DNA of 64,000 bases from Clostridia bacterium. Lineage in GTDB: Bacteria > Bacillota > Clostridia > Oscillospirales > Acutalibacteraceae. This document shows, one piece after another, positions 2,684-52,819 of the stretch. The stretch is taken from contig JAFSAC010000016.1 of the NCBI GenBank assembly GCA_017442265.1, positions 1-64,000 on the forward strand, read 5' to 3'. The notes beneath the pieces were generated by a model that worked only from the letters and a program-made list of their open reading frames with translations, was not told where the DNA came from and ran no database searches. The translations under genes and the position numbers were made by a program. The first letter of the stretch is position 1. The number at the start of each line of letters is the position of its first letter.

Positions 2684-3946
2684 TTAAAATAAAGGATATA
2701 AATCGGCGTATAAATACAGCGACCCGACACAAAGGAGCGGCTTTTTTCTCTCTTTTGCCGCTTGCCTGGCGGCGGAAAATCCGTCGGCAACGGTATCGTA
2801 AGGGCAAGCGGACACCCCGGCGCTTTGAAGCACGGCGGCGTATTCCTCCGCCGGCAAGGCACGGGGGGAATCGGGGGTGACGGTGAAAGCGGTGTCGGCC
2901 ACTTCGGCCAGCATACCGGCGATCTCGGTATAGTCTTTGTCCCGCAGAACACCGGTGAAGAGGTGGATTTTTTCATCGGGGAAATATTGCTTAATACTGT
3001 TGACCGCACCCCGTATCCCTTGCGGGTTGTGTGCGCCGTCAAACAGGATAAGGGGGTTATGGCTCACCAGTTCAAAACGGCCGTGCCAGACGGTGTTTTT
3101 CAGTCCGTCATATACCGCCTTATCGGGAATATTTAGTCCCTGTTCCCGCAGAATGTCCACCGCCGTCAACAGGTTGGCGGCGTTTTTCAGTTGATAAAGA
3201 CCCAGTAGCGGGATAAACAGGTTTTGCCGGTTTTCAAAATCAAAGGTGCTTCCCGAAAGATCGGCGGTTTTCAGGGTAAGCGCCGTATGGTCGGTAAGGA
3301 TGAAGGGGGCGTTTTGGGTGCTGGCGGTATCCCGGATAATAGCGGCCGCCGTTTCATCTTCACCGCCGAACAAAACCGGCACCTCTTTTTTGATAATACC
3401 GGCCTTTTCTTTCGCAATAGCGGCGACGGTGTCCCCTAAAATGGCGGTGTGATCCATACCGATGCCGGTGATGACCGATAATATCGGGGAATCGATGATA
3501 TTGGTGGAATCCAACCGACCGCCCAGCCCCGTTTCCAGTACCACGATATCGCAACCGTGCTTTTGGAAGAATAAAAACGAAAGCGCGGTGATGAGTTCAA
3601 ATTCGGTGGGCTTTTCGGTCATCGAATCGGCGATAGGGCGAATGAAAGCGGTCAGTTCGGCCAGTTCATCGGGGGAGATATTTTCGCCGTTTATCTGCAT
3701 CCGCTCGTAAAAGGTGCGGATGTAGGGGGAGGTGAAGGTGCCCACCGTATATCCCGCTTCCCGCAACACCGAAGAACACATCGCACAAAATGACCCTTTG
3801 CCATTGGTGCCCGCCACGTGAATAAAACGCAGTTTCTTTTCCGGATGCCCCAGCTTTTCGCACAATTCCCCGATCCGTTCCAGACCGGGATTGCAGAATT
3901 GCCAGTTGATATGGTGGATATAGTCTATCGCTTGCTGAGGATTCAT
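2684..3946 (-). CDS. folC: Folylpolyglutamate synthase / dihydrofolate synthase
   Basis: Adds glutamate to folates (and to dihydropteroate), trapping and activating the cofactor. The 420-residue protein has the Mur-ligase-like ATP loop HVAGTNGKGS near residue 43, the Omega-loop motif SPYIRTFYERMQING, GLGGRLDSTN, and DGAHNPQG in the C-terminal domain. The start is 3946 because AAAGGAG precedes it; the longer open frame into folT is spurious. It lies 2 bp downstream of folT and is controlled with it by the THF riboswitch. Confidence 0.95.
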   Translation of the reverse strand: MNPQQAIDYIHHINWQFCNPGLERIGELCEKLGHPEKKLRFIHVAGTNGKGSFCAMCSSVLREAGYTVGTFTSPYIRTFYERMQINGENISPDELAELTAFIRPIADSMTEKPTEFELITALSFLFFQKHGCDIVVLETGLGGRLDSTNIIDSPILSVITGIGMDHTAILGDTVAAIAKEKAGIIKKEVPVLFGGEDETAAAIIRDTASTQNAPFILTDHTALTLKTADLSGSTFDFENRQNLFIPLLGLYQLKNAANLLTAVDILREQGLNIPDKAVYDGLKNTVWHGRFELVSHNPLILFDGAHNPQGIRGAVNSIKQYFPDEKIHLFTGVLRDKDYTEIAGMLAEVADTAFTVTPDSPRALPAEEYAAVLQSAGVSACPYDTVADGFSAARQAAKERKKPLLCVGSLYLYADLYPLF

Positions 3947-45889: not shown

Positions 45890-45922
45890 AAAATACCGTA
45901 CCGGTTGGTACGGTATTTTTAT
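45887..45922. terminator. Bidirectional terminator, araC-type gene/addA
   Basis: AAATACCGTACC stem, GGTT loop, complement, then TTTTTATT; A-rich on the other side. Confidence 0.88.
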
Positions 45923-47883
45923 TATATTTCCACCGTCTTATCCAAATGGAACGAATAAAGAAGCGACTGTTTAACCGGTAGTCCCAAGGTGTCGGTCAGC
46001 GCCTGACGGTACACCTCTAACTGCTTGTGATACCGTAAGGCAAGTTTCTTTCCGGTAGCCACCCGATCGGTTTTGTAATCGACGATGATCAGTTCCCCGT
46101 TTTCCTCAAACACACAGTCGGCGATTCCCTGCACGATCATCCGATCCTCGGTGCCTTCCGGCAGGGTGGGATCGAATTTGTGCGCCGGGAGCGGTACGGT
46201 AAAGGCGTATTCCCGCCAAACCCTGTCCGCTTTTTGAATACGGGCGTATAACCCGCTTTGGAAAAACCGGGTGATCTTCGCCATATCCAGCGCCTGCCGC
46301 CATGCTTCGGTGATAAAGCCGTCGGCAAGCAGACGATCCGCTTCCTTTTCCGGATTTTTAGCCGCCGCCCTGTAATCGGCAAACTGCATAAAGGTATGGA
46401 GAGCGGTTCCCCGCTCGGCGGGGGTGAGCCGGTCGACCGCCAAAAAGGCGGGACGGCGGGTGGCGACGAAATCGGCCGCCAGTTCCCGGTGAGCAAGCTC
46501 AGAGGCGGCGATTTTGGCCGGAACCCCTTGCAAGGAGGCAAACGGATACCGGTAATTCAGCCGTTCTTCTAAGGTGCGGAGCAACCCCGGGTCGGGGGTC
46601 GCGGTGCCACCGGCAGATAGCGGGGTAAGTTCCAATTCCTCCGGCTCGTACCACCGACAGCACAGGTTCTCATCAGCCGGGAGGGTGTCGATATTGGGTG
46701 CGCCGGCGAGAGAGCGCAGTAACACGGCATCCGGATGCCGCAGAAGGGATAACAGTATCCAATCTCCAAACGACCCCGAGGACAGCATCCGCGCAGTATC
46801 CAGGTGAGGGGTGGTCGGCAGATAGGTCATCAGCTTCTGCAGGCGGGCGGGGAGATTTTTCCTCACAAACAGGCAGATAAGCTTTTCCCGGGCACGGGTC
46901 ATCGCCACGTATAATATCCGCAGTTCCTCCGCCATATCGGTATACCGGGTGGCCAGCCGTATGCCGCTCTGGGCTACCGTCTGGAGGGTGGTCATATCGG
47001 TTTCGTTATACCCACTGATCGCCACCCCATCGGTGCCGTGTAGCGACAACGGCTGTTTGCCGGTATCCCGGTGAAACTCCCCGAATAGGTGGGGCAGCAG
47101 CACGATCGGAAACTCCAGTCCTTTAGAGCCGTGAATGGTCATCAGCGATATAGCGTTGTTGCCGGTGGGTGCCGGCTTGGAGGAAAGGTCCTTTTTCTCG
47201 GTTTCCAATCGGTCAAGATACCGCACGAAGGCGGATAACCCCCGGAAGCCGTTTTGCTCGTACTGTTTGGCATACTGCATCAATTCCCGCAGATCGTTCA
47301 CCCGTTGATCGCCGTCCGGTCCGGCGGCGGCCACCGCCAAGAGAGCGGTTTCCTCATACAGCCGCTCGAGCAGGGTATCCGCCGGCAACGACACCGCCAG
47401 CCGTCGGAAATGCCGCAGGCGCTCGATCATATCGCTCGCCTTTTGTTGCAAAGGAAAGCCGGGCTCCTCGGCGGCAAGCAGGAAAGCGGTGTATAGGGCC
47501 ACCGAGCGATGCTGGGCTTTTTCGCGTGTCAGCACCCGGATGCGGGCGCAATCGTCGGCGGTAAAGCCGCCAATGGGGGAGAGCAACAGCGCCATAAAAG
47601 ACACGTCCCGTAAGGGGTTGTCGATACTGCGGAGTAAGGATAAGGCGGTCTGTACCACCGGCACCTCAAAGAAGGGGGTGCCGGTATCCATATCCACCGG
47701 AATCCCCAGCCGCCGCAGTTCATCTGCGTATAGGGTAGCCCGGGAACCACGACTGCGAAGCAGGATGCAGATATCCCGGTACTGCACCGGGCGCCGGAGG
47801 TTATTCTCGGTTACCTGACCGCTCTCGATCAGTTCCCGGATGCGGGCGGCCATAATGCGTGCCTCCGCTACGTCCACCGACAT
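45922..47883 (-). CDS. addA: AddA C-terminal part: helicase motifs V-VI and nuclease domain
   Basis: The second piece of the AddA helicase-nuclease, 653 residues, in the same frame as the first piece and separated from it by one TAG and one GAG codon. It holds SLMTIHGSKGLEFPIVLLPHL (split motif V), ELRILYVAMTRAREKL (motif VI) and the RecB-type nuclease with GIADCVFEENGELIIVDYKTD and QLEVYRQAL. The ATG at 47883 directly touches TAGGAG; a GTG two codons on (47877) has better spacing. It may be reinitiated, read through, or a pseudogene fragment. Confidence 0.75.
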   Translation of the reverse strand: MSVDVAEARIMAARIRELIESGQVTENNLRRPVQYRDICILLRSRGSRATLYADELRRLGIPVDMDTGTPFFEVPVVQTALSLLRSIDNPLRDVSFMALLLSPIGGFTADDCARIRVLTREKAQHRSVALYTAFLLAAEEPGFPLQQKASDMIERLRHFRRLAVSLPADTLLERLYEETALLAVAAAGPDGDQRVNDLRELMQYAKQYEQNGFRGLSAFVRYLDRLETEKKDLSSKPAPTGNNAISLMTIHGSKGLEFPIVLLPHLFGEFHRDTGKQPLSLHGTDGVAISGYNETDMTTLQTVAQSGIRLATRYTDMAEELRILYVAMTRAREKLICLFVRKNLPARLQKLMTYLPTTPHLDTARMLSSGSFGDWILLSLLRHPDAVLLRSLAGAPNIDTLPADENLCCRWYEPEELELTPLSAGGTATPDPGLLRTLEERLNYRYPFASLQGVPAKIAASELAHRELAADFVATRRPAFLAVDRLTPAERGTALHTFMQFADYRAAAKNPEKEADRLLADGFITEAWRQALDMAKITRFFQSGLYARIQKADRVWREYAFTVPLPAHKFDPTLPEGTEDRMIVQGIADCVFEENGELIIVDYKTDRVATGKKLALRYHKQLEVYRQALTDTLGLPVKQSLLYSFHLDKTVEI

Positions 47884-47886
47884 CTC

Positions 47887-49467
47887 CTACCCGCTGTACG
47901 GATGATCAAACAAAAGACATTCGGTTTCAGCTCCGGTCAATTCAGGGTAGGTCGCAGACGGGATCAGTTCTTCGTTTTCAGCGTATTCAATCCCGCAGAA
48001 TTCTTTGGTCATCAACTGCCGGAACAGGAAATTGACCGTCCCGGTAACCTCTTTCCGACTGCGGAAATTTTCGCCCAGGGTGATGAGGGCGGGGAAACGG
48101 GTCCCGTCATACGGATAGGCGCGATTTCGCTTATCCATAAAGATCTGCGGCATTGCCTGACGGAAGCCGTAGATGCTTTGCTTGACGTCCCCGACCATAA
48201 ACTGGGAATTGTCCTCACAGGACAGCATCCGGAAAATGGTATCCTGCACGTCGTTGGTATCCTGGTATTCGTCCACGAAAATCTCGGTATACCGGCGGCC
48301 GGTTTCGTAAGCCAACTCGGTCGGCTTCCCGGTTTCGGGATTTCGCAACAGCGAGAGGGTGATATGCTCCAAATCGTTGAAATCCAGCAGTCCCTTTTGC
48401 GTTTTTTTCTCCCGGTACCGCTCGGAAAACGCTTCGATAAGATCGCAAAACGCCGTTAATTGCGGGGCGGTATCCAAAAGATCCTGCCGGAGTGCCTCTT
48501 CGCCGTCCCCAAACAGCGGGACAAGGTTTTCCCGGATTTCCTTACGGAAAATGCCCCATACCGTTTTCACCGTTTCGGTGTGAGCGGCGGGTAAGCCCTT
48601 GGCAGGCGGCAGGGTGGCAGGAATGGCGCTGGCCACCGCGCGGATACAGGTGTCCCACTCGTTCGTGGGATCGGACACGGTGAGGGCGGCACGCTGAAGC
48701 ACGGCGGCATCCTCTAAAAGGCGGGTCAGGTACTTTTCGGCGCCGTCACATTCACGAAAGGGAAGAATGGCTTTGGCGGCCATATCGGCGAAAAGCCCCA
48801 GTTTTTGGGCGGTAAACCGACGGATACGCTCTCCCCATACGGTGTCGGAAAGGGGGGTGTTCGGGTCGGCTACCGCGATATGCTCCCGCAACCAAGCGAT
48901 AGGATAGGCCTGCGCCTGGATAAAGTTGTAGGTGGCGAGAACAGCGGCCTTCAGCCCGCGGTCGTCCCGCCGTCCGTTCAATAGGTCGGCCAGGCGCATA
49001 AAGGCCGGCTCGGCTGCGGCATAAAACACCTCAAGCGTTTCCTCCAGCGCTTCGGCGCGGAGCAGGGTCTCGTCCCCGCTTTCCGGCACCTTGAAGCGAG
49101 GGTTGATCCCCGCCGCCTCAAAATTCTCCCGCAAAAAGGTGGTGCAAAAGCCGTGAATGGTGGAGATAGCCGCACTGGGGAGTAGCATCTGCTGTCGCAT
49201 CAGCCGGCGATCCTCCGGATGCTCCGCTATATAGGCGGCCAGCCGGGCGGATAACCGCCCTTTCATTTCGGCGGCGGCGGCGCGGGTGAAGGTGACGATC
49301 AGCATCCGGTCGATATCGACGGGATGTTCCTTGTCGGTGATGCGCCGGATGACCCGCTCCACCAAAACGGAGGTTTTCCCCGATCCGGCGGCGGCGGAAA
49401 CCAGTACCGAGCCACCCCGTGCATCGATACAGTTTTTCTGTGCCGGGGTCCATTTACGTTCACTCAT
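47887..49467 (-). CDS. addA: AddA N-terminal part: UvrD-type helicase motifs I-IV, ends at in-frame TAG
   Basis: The first 526 residues of AddA, which with AddB processes double-strand breaks for RecA. Walker A is SAAAGSGKTSVLVERV near residue 25, motif II IFVDEYQDTND, then VGDVKQSIYGFR. The frame ends at TAG (47889-47887) after the sequence FDHPYSG, in the middle of a normally continuous protein; 526 plus 653 residues gives the usual AddA length. The start overlaps the addB stop by 8 bp. Whether the TAG is real, an error, or suppressed cannot be told. Confidence 0.8.
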   Translation of the reverse strand: MSERKWTPAQKNCIDARGGSVLVSAAAGSGKTSVLVERVIRRITDKEHPVDIDRMLIVTFTRAAAAEMKGRLSARLAAYIAEHPEDRRLMRQQMLLPSAAISTIHGFCTTFLRENFEAAGINPRFKVPESGDETLLRAEALEETLEVFYAAAEPAFMRLADLLNGRRDDRGLKAAVLATYNFIQAQAYPIAWLREHIAVADPNTPLSDTVWGERIRRFTAQKLGLFADMAAKAILPFRECDGAEKYLTRLLEDAAVLQRAALTVSDPTNEWDTCIRAVASAIPATLPPAKGLPAAHTETVKTVWGIFRKEIRENLVPLFGDGEEALRQDLLDTAPQLTAFCDLIEAFSERYREKKTQKGLLDFNDLEHITLSLLRNPETGKPTELAYETGRRYTEIFVDEYQDTNDVQDTIFRMLSCEDNSQFMVGDVKQSIYGFRQAMPQIFMDKRNRAYPYDGTRFPALITLGENFRSRKEVTGTVNFLFRQLMTKEFCGIEYAENEELIPSATYPELTGAETECLLFDHPYSG

Positions 49468-52400
49468 TCGGTTCCACCTCCTCCGGTCTCAGCGTTTCCA
49501 AAACCGCTTCGGTTTTGGCAGGTTGCATATATACCGCGGGGTCGTTTTCGGAGAAACCGCACACCGCACGGAAATCGCAGTACTGACAGGGGAGGTGGTT
49601 GTTTTCCCCGGTCGGAACGGCGGCAATATCTCCGTCAAGGAGGGTTTCCGCCATTTGCAGCAGTAGCTTTTCGGTCAACTGACGAATGAGATCGAAGTCC
49701 TCCCGGGTAACCGCACTGCTCCCTTTTTTAATTTGATCGTTTTCCACCTCGGCCGGGATAAAGGTGCCCTTTTTGGTGGCGTCCATTGCGGTGAGCACGT
49801 CGGTGTCAGCGAGCAACAGACCGTTCATTTTCATCAGCTTCAGCCGGCTTTGGTCCAGCGGCACCCGGGTGTTTTTCAGGGTGATGTCCTTCGCCGGCAG
49901 GTACAAAATCCCGGCCGGTGCCGCTCCTTTGGCTTCATACCGGGCAGAAGCGCCGGCACAGACGGTAAAGAGGTATAAGAGTAACTGCATATTGATGCCG
50001 TAAGGAATTTCGCTGAGCTTAAATTCCTTACTGCCGGTCTTATAATCCACCACCCGGATAAAGACGGTATCCGCGCGGCGGTAGAGGTCTACCCGGTCGA
50101 TCTTACCGATGAGCCGTACACGACCCCGATCGTTTGGCAACTCGAATACCGGGGAGGGAACCCCGTCCCCGCCGATAGACAATTCGTAATCCACCGGGGT
50201 GAATTTGCTTTGCGCCATTTCGTGCGCCGTGAACCACAACAGCGAAAAACAGGTGCGCTCCACCAGCGATAACAGATAGGTAAACCGGGCGGGCTTGTCC
50301 TCAAAACCGCCCATTTCCTCTTGTACGTATTGATACAGAATATCGTGAATGCGCTGTTGCATATCCGCAATATCCGACGGTCCGGGGGCTTGTTCCCGCC
50401 CGACGTATTCCGGCAACAGCTTTTCCATAACGTAGTGGGAGAAGGTACCGAAGAGCGGCGCATCCACCTCCGCTACCCGGCGGGTCTTCAGCCGCATTCC
50501 ATATTGGCAGAAATACCGGAAACGGCAACGGAAAAAGGAGTCGGTCTGGCTGGCGGACAGCCGCATATCCGACCCGAACAGCGCCTTGGCATTCTCCGGC
50601 TGAAGGGTCATCGGCTCGCCTTTCACCGTTCGGTCAAGGGTGGAAAACCGCGCGGAAAAATCCGGGAGCTTACCCAACGCTTCCCGCAAGGCGGCGGTGT
50701 ATTCGTTTTCCGTTTCGTAGCTGAAGGCCAGCCGTTCAAACGCTTCGGCGGGGGATTCGATATCCTGCCCGGAAAGGTCGCGGGCGACCCCTTTTTGATG
50801 CTCCGGCAGAATCTCACACACCGTTTTGACAAGCGCCGACGGATGTGCCTCCTCCGCACCCAGCCGTTCAGCAAAGGAGAGCCACAGGGCATCCCTCGGT
50901 GCCGCGAGGGCGAGATAAGCGTAAAACCGTTCCTCTTCTGCTTGCTGTAGCCGTCCGGAGGACAGCGGGATGCCCGCTTCCTCTAATGCTTGCCGGTCGT
51001 GGTCGGACAAGAGGTTGCTGTCCGACGGATAGGCGGGGAACACCCCTTCGTTGGCGCCGAGAATAAACACCGCTTTGGGGGAATTCAGCCGCACGTGATC
51101 GGCACTGCCCACCTGTACCGCATCGATACTTTGCGGGATGGAGGGCAGGCGGGTGAGTCCGATGGCCAGATGAAACAGCGACACGTATCGGCGCGCCGGT
51201 AAGGGGTGTCCTTCAAAGACACTCGCGATCCGGTCGATAAGGTCGATCATCAGGTCCCATAACCGGGCGGTACGCTCGGTGAGGGCGGGTTCGTTTTCCT
51301 CTTGATAGGCGTGATATAACCGCCGCACCCCGTCATCCGCCTTTACGGCGGGATCGGTGAGATAACGGTACAGCGCCTCACACAGGGTTTGTCCGTCCGG
51401 GCGATCGCCGATCGCCTTTTTGAGGGCTTTGAGCGGTGTAATCAATTGGCGGCGAAGGGTCTCTAAAGAATTCAGGGTATCCCAATCAAACCGGCTTTTG
51501 TCGGTTAAGCCCTCGGGATTGGCGGTGAAGGGCTTTTCCCACCGCTTGCCGTCGATCCGCCAGATATAGACGTAATTCTCCAAAGCCGCCACCGCCGTAT
51601 CGTTAAACGGCAACAGTCCGGTTTTCAGGATGCGCAGTAATTCCTCGGTTTGCCACCCGCCGGTACACACCCTAAGAGCGGAGAGGATCAGAGAGGGGAG
51701 CGGCTCGGTGTAGATATCCGCCGCTTCATCCATATAAAACGGAATCTCCTCCCGGCGCAGAGCGGCATCCAGTATCCCGGCATAATCCTTGACATGCCGG
51801 ACGATGACCGCTATTTCCCGTGCCCGCATCCCGGTTTCACGCAGGGTGCGGCGAATGGTCCGGGCGGCCGCCGCGGCTTCCGCATACCGGTCGGGGCAGG
51901 GGGTGACGGTAATTTCCGGTGCTGTTTCGGGATACACCTCGGCACGCGCGGTAAAAGCACCGCTCTCCAGCGCCCGCAAAGCGGGGGTGCCGGCACGGTG
52001 ATTTTGGGATAATACGATCGGGTCACGAAGGGGGATTCCGTGATCGGCCGCAAGGTCGGTCAACTGTCGGAGCGAGCGGGCGGCCGGGGCAAAGATGCCG
52101 GCGGCTTCCGGATCGGGGTGAGCGGTATCGGTGCAAAGGGTGACGGTGAGATCGGCGGTTTTCATCAAGGCCGCCAGCATATCCAGTTCCACCGTGGTAA
52201 ACCCCTTGAATCCGTCCACAAAAATCTGTGCCCGGTCGGCAAAATCGGAGTCGGTCAGCTTCTCGGCGGCGAGCGCTAACAGTCCGTCCGGGTCCAGTCC
52301 CTTACCGGAAATAAGGCCGTCGTATACCGAGAAAAGCCCTGACAAATCGGTTAGTTTCTGTTTTAAGGTGCCGTCCGGCAGGCCGCTTGCGGTTAGCTCC

Positions 52401-52819
52401 AGCATCCGGGGAGAAACAGCACACTGTTTACATTCGTCCGATAATGCGAGTAGCGAGCGCAGGTATTCCGGGTCATACAGGCGGGGAGATTCGGCGGCGC
52501 CTTCCGTCTGTTGTTCGGGAGCGGTATGCAGTTCCAACGCCCGGCTCATCAACAGCGCCCGGGTGACGTCGTCCAGCACTGTTTTGGAGGCGGCGCCGGT
52601 TTCCCGCAACACCCGCTCGGCCAGCCGGCTGAAGCTGAACACCTGAACCCCGGCGGCTTTTTGCACCCCGAAGCGATCGATGAGCGCCCGCTCGGCGGCA
52701 AAGGAAAACTGCTCCGGCACCAGAAGCCAGATCGGGCGATCGGTATTGGCCGCGGCGATATGGTTAAATACCGTCTCGGTTTTTCCACTGCCGGCGCGGC
52801 CGACGATAAACTGGGTCAT
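49460..52819 (-). CDS. addB: AddB, helicase-nuclease subunit B
   Basis: The 1119-residue partner of AddA. An N-terminal Walker A is VGRAGSGKTETVF; the helicase-like region follows. The C-terminal nuclease has GKIDRVDLYRRADTVFIRVVDYKTG-type residues (Asp and Asp-Tyr-Lys). The 4Fe-4S staple that braces the nuclease is complete: one Cys in FFRCRFRYFC and three in PCQYCDFRAVCGF. The gene looks fully intact, which argues against long decay of the pair. Confidence 0.94.
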   Translation of the reverse strand: MTQFIVGRAGSGKTETVFNHIAAANTDRPIWLLVPEQFSFAAERALIDRFGVQKAAGVQVFSFSRLAERVLRETGAASKTVLDDVTRALLMSRALELHTAPEQQTEGAAESPRLYDPEYLRSLLALSDECKQCAVSPRMLELTASGLPDGTLKQKLTDLSGLFSVYDGLISGKGLDPDGLLALAAEKLTDSDFADRAQIFVDGFKGFTTVELDMLAALMKTADLTVTLCTDTAHPDPEAAGIFAPAARSLRQLTDLAADHGIPLRDPIVLSQNHRAGTPALRALESGAFTARAEVYPETAPEITVTPCPDRYAEAAAAARTIRRTLRETGMRAREIAVIVRHVKDYAGILDAALRREEIPFYMDEAADIYTEPLPSLILSALRVCTGGWQTEELLRILKTGLLPFNDTAVAALENYVYIWRIDGKRWEKPFTANPEGLTDKSRFDWDTLNSLETLRRQLITPLKALKKAIGDRPDGQTLCEALYRYLTDPAVKADDGVRRLYHAYQEENEPALTERTARLWDLMIDLIDRIASVFEGHPLPARRYVSLFHLAIGLTRLPSIPQSIDAVQVGSADHVRLNSPKAVFILGANEGVFPAYPSDSNLLSDHDRQALEEAGIPLSSGRLQQAEEERFYAYLALAAPRDALWLSFAERLGAEEAHPSALVKTVCEILPEHQKGVARDLSGQDIESPAEAFERLAFSYETENEYTAALREALGKLPDFSARFSTLDRTVKGEPMTLQPENAKALFGSDMRLSASQTDSFFRCRFRYFCQYGMRLKTRRVAEVDAPLFGTFSHYVMEKLLPEYVGREQAPGPSDIADMQQRIHDILYQYVQEEMGGFEDKPARFTYLLSLVERTCFSLLWFTAHEMAQSKFTPVDYELSIGGDGVPSPVFELPNDRGRVRLIGKIDRVDLYRRADTVFIRVVDYKTGSKEFKLSEIPYGINMQLLLYLFTVCAGASARYEAKGAAPAGILYLPAKDITLKNTRVPLDQSRLKLMKMNGLLLADTDVLTAMDATKKGTFIPAEVENDQIKKGSSAVTREDFDLIRQLTEKLLLQMAETLLDGDIAAVPTGENNHLPCQYCDFRAVCGFSENDPAVYMQPAKTEAVLETLRPEEVEPNE

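Follow-up and report, generated by a model that had tools for sequence, protein, structure and literature searches.

Closest described systems

The closest described counterpart of the gene studied here is Gram-positive AddA, represented by the profile TIGR02785 and by the AddA chain of PDB 3u44/3u4q. The protein encoded in the genome analysed (G000) is like it in domains, motifs, length and the neighbouring addB gene, and resembles 3u44 chain A along its entire length (E 1e-150). It differs in that the gene lies in two in-frame pieces, whereas an internal stop is present in just one of the family relatives inspected. A single in-frame stop in one lineage has likewise been described for addA of supergroup B Wolbachia strains of isopods, where the two parts were analysed separately and a Ka/Ks of around 0.2 was reported, the table printing both rows as addA_1 (PMC4224334). 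The Wolbachia stop (nt 3100), however, is associated with insertion of a palindromic element and deprives the protein of the nuclease domain alone (PMC4224334), whereas that of G000 interrupts the helicase core itself and sits next to a restart site. In Thermus thermophilus HB27, AddA was lost by simple mutation and the cells were viable; the lesion was a frameshift in laboratory mutants, and the portion of that report available to us describes no restart site (PMC9751324). Finally, termination-reinitiation gene pairs (PMC6728339, PMC10666635) resemble the present locus in their start-stop distance (+3/+9 nt here), in having a Shine-Dalgarno (SD) sequence at the stop and in the expectation of one complex, but are established separate genes, unlike the two cistrons of G000, which are pieces of one ancestral gene.

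A single in-frame TAG divides addA

The window, a stretch of 64,000 nucleotides, belongs to a 1.47-Mb draft genome of 68 contigs that is 84% complete and probably metagenome-assembled. A sequence-only reading of this DNA had placed two halves of addA in one frame, separated by TAG GAG, and its coordinates, strand, frame and codon were all borne out. On the minus strand, from 49467 to 45922, one addA frame is interrupted once, by a TAG (47889-47887) at residue 527 of the read-through frame, and the junction reads ...TAC AGC GGG TAG GAG ATG TCG GTG GAC.... The first half, addA-N (47887..49467, minus strand), encodes 526 aa and ends with this TAG; the second, addA-C (45922..47883, minus strand), encodes 653 aa, or 651 from the in-frame GTG. 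Upstream on the same strand lies an intact addB (49460..52819; 1119 aa; TIGR02773 over protein residues 3-1091, E 3e-191; PF21445, PF12705), the end of which overlaps the start of addA by 8 nt, as expected from the addB linkage of AddA (TIGR02785). With addB just upstream of two in-frame addA ORFs, the operon order is therefore addB, addA-N, addA-C.

The combined length of the pieces was confirmed to be normal, the read-through frame having 1181 residues including the stop, against 1138-1211 in relatives. Of the 1234 positions of TIGR02785 (addA_Gpos), addA-N matches 1-518 (416.2 bits) and addA-C 544-1233 (402.5 bits). Each half scores below the whole-AddA cut-off of 707.65 bits, so that neither qualifies as a single-polypeptide AddA; together they cover the whole profile in order, with helicase and nuclease domains present. 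The UvrD-type N-terminal core (PF00580) is found in addA-N, whereas UvrD_C (PF13361) and the PD-(D/E)XK nuclease (PF12705) are found in addA-C. Every motif checked was kept on one side of the stop or the other, as had been claimed: Walker A (residue 25) and motifs II, III and IV precede it, with DEYQDT at 399, GDVKQSIYGFR at 426 and NFRSR at 467, and HGSKGLEF (779), LYVAMTRA (852) and the nuclease motif VDYKTD (1129) follow it. The second half thus holds what remains of the second RecA-like domain together with motifs V-VI and the PD-(D/E)XK nuclease.

The 653 codons of addA-C contain no further stop or frameshift, retain their motifs and so carry no pseudogene lesion. Nor was the relative rate of addA-C raised, its C/N path ratio being 0.98 against a median of 1.06 for the others in trees of 34 sequences, a picture that a very young pseudogene would share. 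By a rough estimate, 653 unconstrained codons should acquire a new stop or a frameshift once neutral change has reached a few per cent. The absence of decay therefore means that addA-C is in use or that the stop is very young.

TAG is read as a stop in this genome

A frame that is open on either side of a rare stop codon could also indicate suppression or recoding, with an amino acid inserted at the TAG to give a single AddA chain of full length. The rarity of TAG is real: it had been said to end only one other gene of the window, and the called genes there indeed use TAA 35 times, TGA 18 times and TAG twice, addA included. Across 447 kb of sampled stretches of G000 (window included; about 358 called genes), TAG ends 13 of 347 genes (~4%). 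The release factor genes for RF1 (prfA) and RF2 are, however, both present and intact, so that the RF1 loss associated with a recoded TAG is not seen, and other genes terminate in TAG at junctions of ordinary layout. A search for a suppressor tRNA, which had been proposed as a check, gave no CUA anticodon among 35 tRNA matches, the missing 16% of the genome leaving a small gap in this argument. Folding of the junction RNA revealed no unusual structure (z -0.40), with the SD paired in the predicted fold, and thus gave no structural signal for recoding at the site. TAG is a normal stop in G000, with no sign of use as a sense codon, and suppression, which the sequence-only reading had listed as an alternative, is considered very improbable.

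An apparent TAA inside prfA proved to be just its terminal stop. The RF2 gene (L198, contig C35) appears as a single unbroken frame, lacking the programmed frameshift found in many bacteria.

The stop lies in a variable loop and overlaps a restart signal

Residue 527 comes after motif IV, within the second RecA-like domain. In an AlphaFold2 model of moderate overall quality (mean pLDDT 75.7, pTM 0.58), residues 524-527 have a pLDDT <50, following a strand (515-522) and preceding a helix (531-549). From what is known of UvrD-type helicases, we take the site to be a loop inside domain 2A rather than an interdomain linker. In the AddA alignment, conservation at the site is among the lowest 2-3% of positions for half-windows of 3-7 residues and only among the lowest 11-18% in wider windows, a measure picked after the site had been seen. 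The loop also differs in length between relatives. AddA similarity breaks at 47830-47940 of the window (residues ~510-534) in genomes of other Clostridia families (G492, G542, G530, G594, G596), which suggests, from the alignments, lineage-specific insertions at the TAG site.

The stop and the codon after it form TAGGAG (47884..47889, minus strand), in which the stop overlaps an SD core. The proposal that this core serves a GTG six bases on held up, as the in-frame GTG (47875..47877, minus strand) is properly spaced, begins at 47877, 9 nt past the stop, and is the likely start of addA-C. Its anti-SD duplex of -8.7 kcal/mol lies near the median of -9.35 for called genes and is stronger than that of 94% of internal start codons. 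An in-frame ATG directly after the GAG (47881..47883, minus strand), which had been missed, lies too near the SD core, and with this poor spacing its duplex reaches -4.8 kcal/mol. Start-stop distances of -8 to +10 nt were used by Huber et al. as predictive of termination-reinitiation and are enriched for subunits of heteromeric complexes (PMC10666635); both candidate starts fall within that range, at +3 (ATG) and +9 (GTG) nt. Pairs around +10 nt may instead initiate independently from their own SD (PMC10666635), which would likewise give addA-C.

Among the 363 addA positions that are one substitution from a stop, ~10% have any in-frame start with an SD within 8 codons and ~1% have a start and SD as close and strong as those at the actual TAG, the comparison again being post hoc. 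These frequencies bear on a competing explanation, a recent null allele, in which a nonsense mutation inactivated AddA in a strain or population too recently for decay and left AddB without its helicase partner. A random stop would land in the loop in ~2-3% of cases and beside an equally good restart site in ~1%, and addB is intact. Neither a null allele nor an error in the sequence requires a particular location, and that loop, SD and start fall together counts against both. This argument does not settle the matter, as functional gene fissions are less common than private nonsense mutations and errors. The SD-like purines may themselves be older than the stop, given how often acidic codons occur in the loop.

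The split is private to one genome

The same site was checked in related genomes, as had been suggested, and was split in none. Among 349 other family genomes inspected one by one (29 further family genomes with an AddA match lying outside this set), only one, G306, has an internal AddA stop, and none was seen in a draw of ~120 further genomes across the Clostridia, some of whose AddA matches cover the gene only partly. The split is therefore private to G000 at this sampling. G000 is the only representative of its genus in the collection, and its closest AddA proteins share 47% identity with it; a contig search with addA-N alone gave no matches, and with the AddA alignment the best relative among the matches listed was 42% identical. 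The addA of G306 (L185, L192; contig C5:103832-107335) is in pieces, with several frames or frameshifts and one TAG, and is either a decayed gene or part of an indel-rich assembly.

Because no relative shares the stop, the lack of decay would be accounted for just as well by a null allele of recent origin or by an error in the consensus. The latter covers errors of sequence or assembly as well as a variant from a minority strain that entered the draft consensus. One substitution suffices, the genome is an incomplete draft in many contigs, and no second record of the species was present among the matches listed. On the other hand, the 447-kb sample showed no further long gene evidently split by a single stop, no lone-stop AddA was found among the other family genes inspected, and an error has no reason to hit a loop with an SD and a start. 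We consider an error unlikely, but still a serious alternative. Neighbouring ORFs in the same frame elsewhere in the sample were judged by eye to be ordinary neighbouring genes.

In favour of the null allele are the restriction of the stop to one genome, the multiply broken addA of G306 and the truncating stop known in Wolbachia addA, a precedent for a stop confined to one lineage (PMC4224334). AddAB also seems to be dispensable, in that a search at E 1e-60 left 19 of 398 family genomes without an AddA match; AddAB is dispensable in some bacteria, and spontaneous loss of addA is documented in Thermus (PMC9751324). Three of the genomes without a match (G004, G022, G171) are all at least 96% complete and of 1.1-2.2 Mb. 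Judged from sequence comparison, the missing matches suggest repeated loss or strong divergence. Weighed against the placement of the stop and the intact addB, a null allele is a serious possibility, if on the doubtful side.

A possible two-chain AddA

The proposal that addA-C is re-initiated to give a two-chain AddA survived all tests run, and was favoured by the loop, the undecayed addA-C and the TAGGAG-start layout at other apparent gene junctions of the genome; against it, no relative has the stop, and there is therefore no sign of conservation as a split. A recently arisen split with a re-initiated second half giving a two-chain AddA is thus preferred, tentatively. More guarded still is the claim of function, namely a working helicase-nuclease whose second RecA-like domain is built from two separately translated pieces. 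The likelihoods expressed here for the four readings are judgements and were not computed.

In the preferred two-chain reading, a single nonsense codon would have arisen recently in the G000 lineage, in a surface loop of AddA that tolerates change and joins the first strand of the second RecA-like domain to the next helix, and would have turned addA into two cistrons, in the order addB - addA-N - addA-C. Ribosomes ending addA-N at the TAG would already be on the TAGGAG SD core, would open the paired SD on terminating and could restart at the GTG 9 nt downstream, so that the stop codon would itself be part of the restart signal and would couple both pieces. The folded 2A domain and AddB may then hold the two chains together. 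The ATPase site of SF1 helicases sits between two RecA-like domains, and neither AddA half alone can form one; two-chain assembly would therefore have to be efficient. The stop, its restriction to G000, its place in a loop, the SD and start beside it and the undecayed second half are all observed, whereas production of addA-C, association of the two chains and activity of the resulting enzyme are inferences.

The addA of G000 is thus either a rare two-piece enzyme or the product of a very recent mutation or sequence error. If the split is real, gene fission is seen at its first step, with one substitution making two subunits of a large motor protein because stop, ribosome-binding site and loop coincide, and the locus would show where helicases of the AddA/RecB type can naturally be split. 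Should it prove to be a null allele or an error, it urges caution in inferring split genes when just one draft genome is at hand.

Elsewhere in G000, two apparent gene junctions (L078, 19122-19124; L067, 15909-15911) likewise have TAGGAG as both the stop and the SD core for the next gene.
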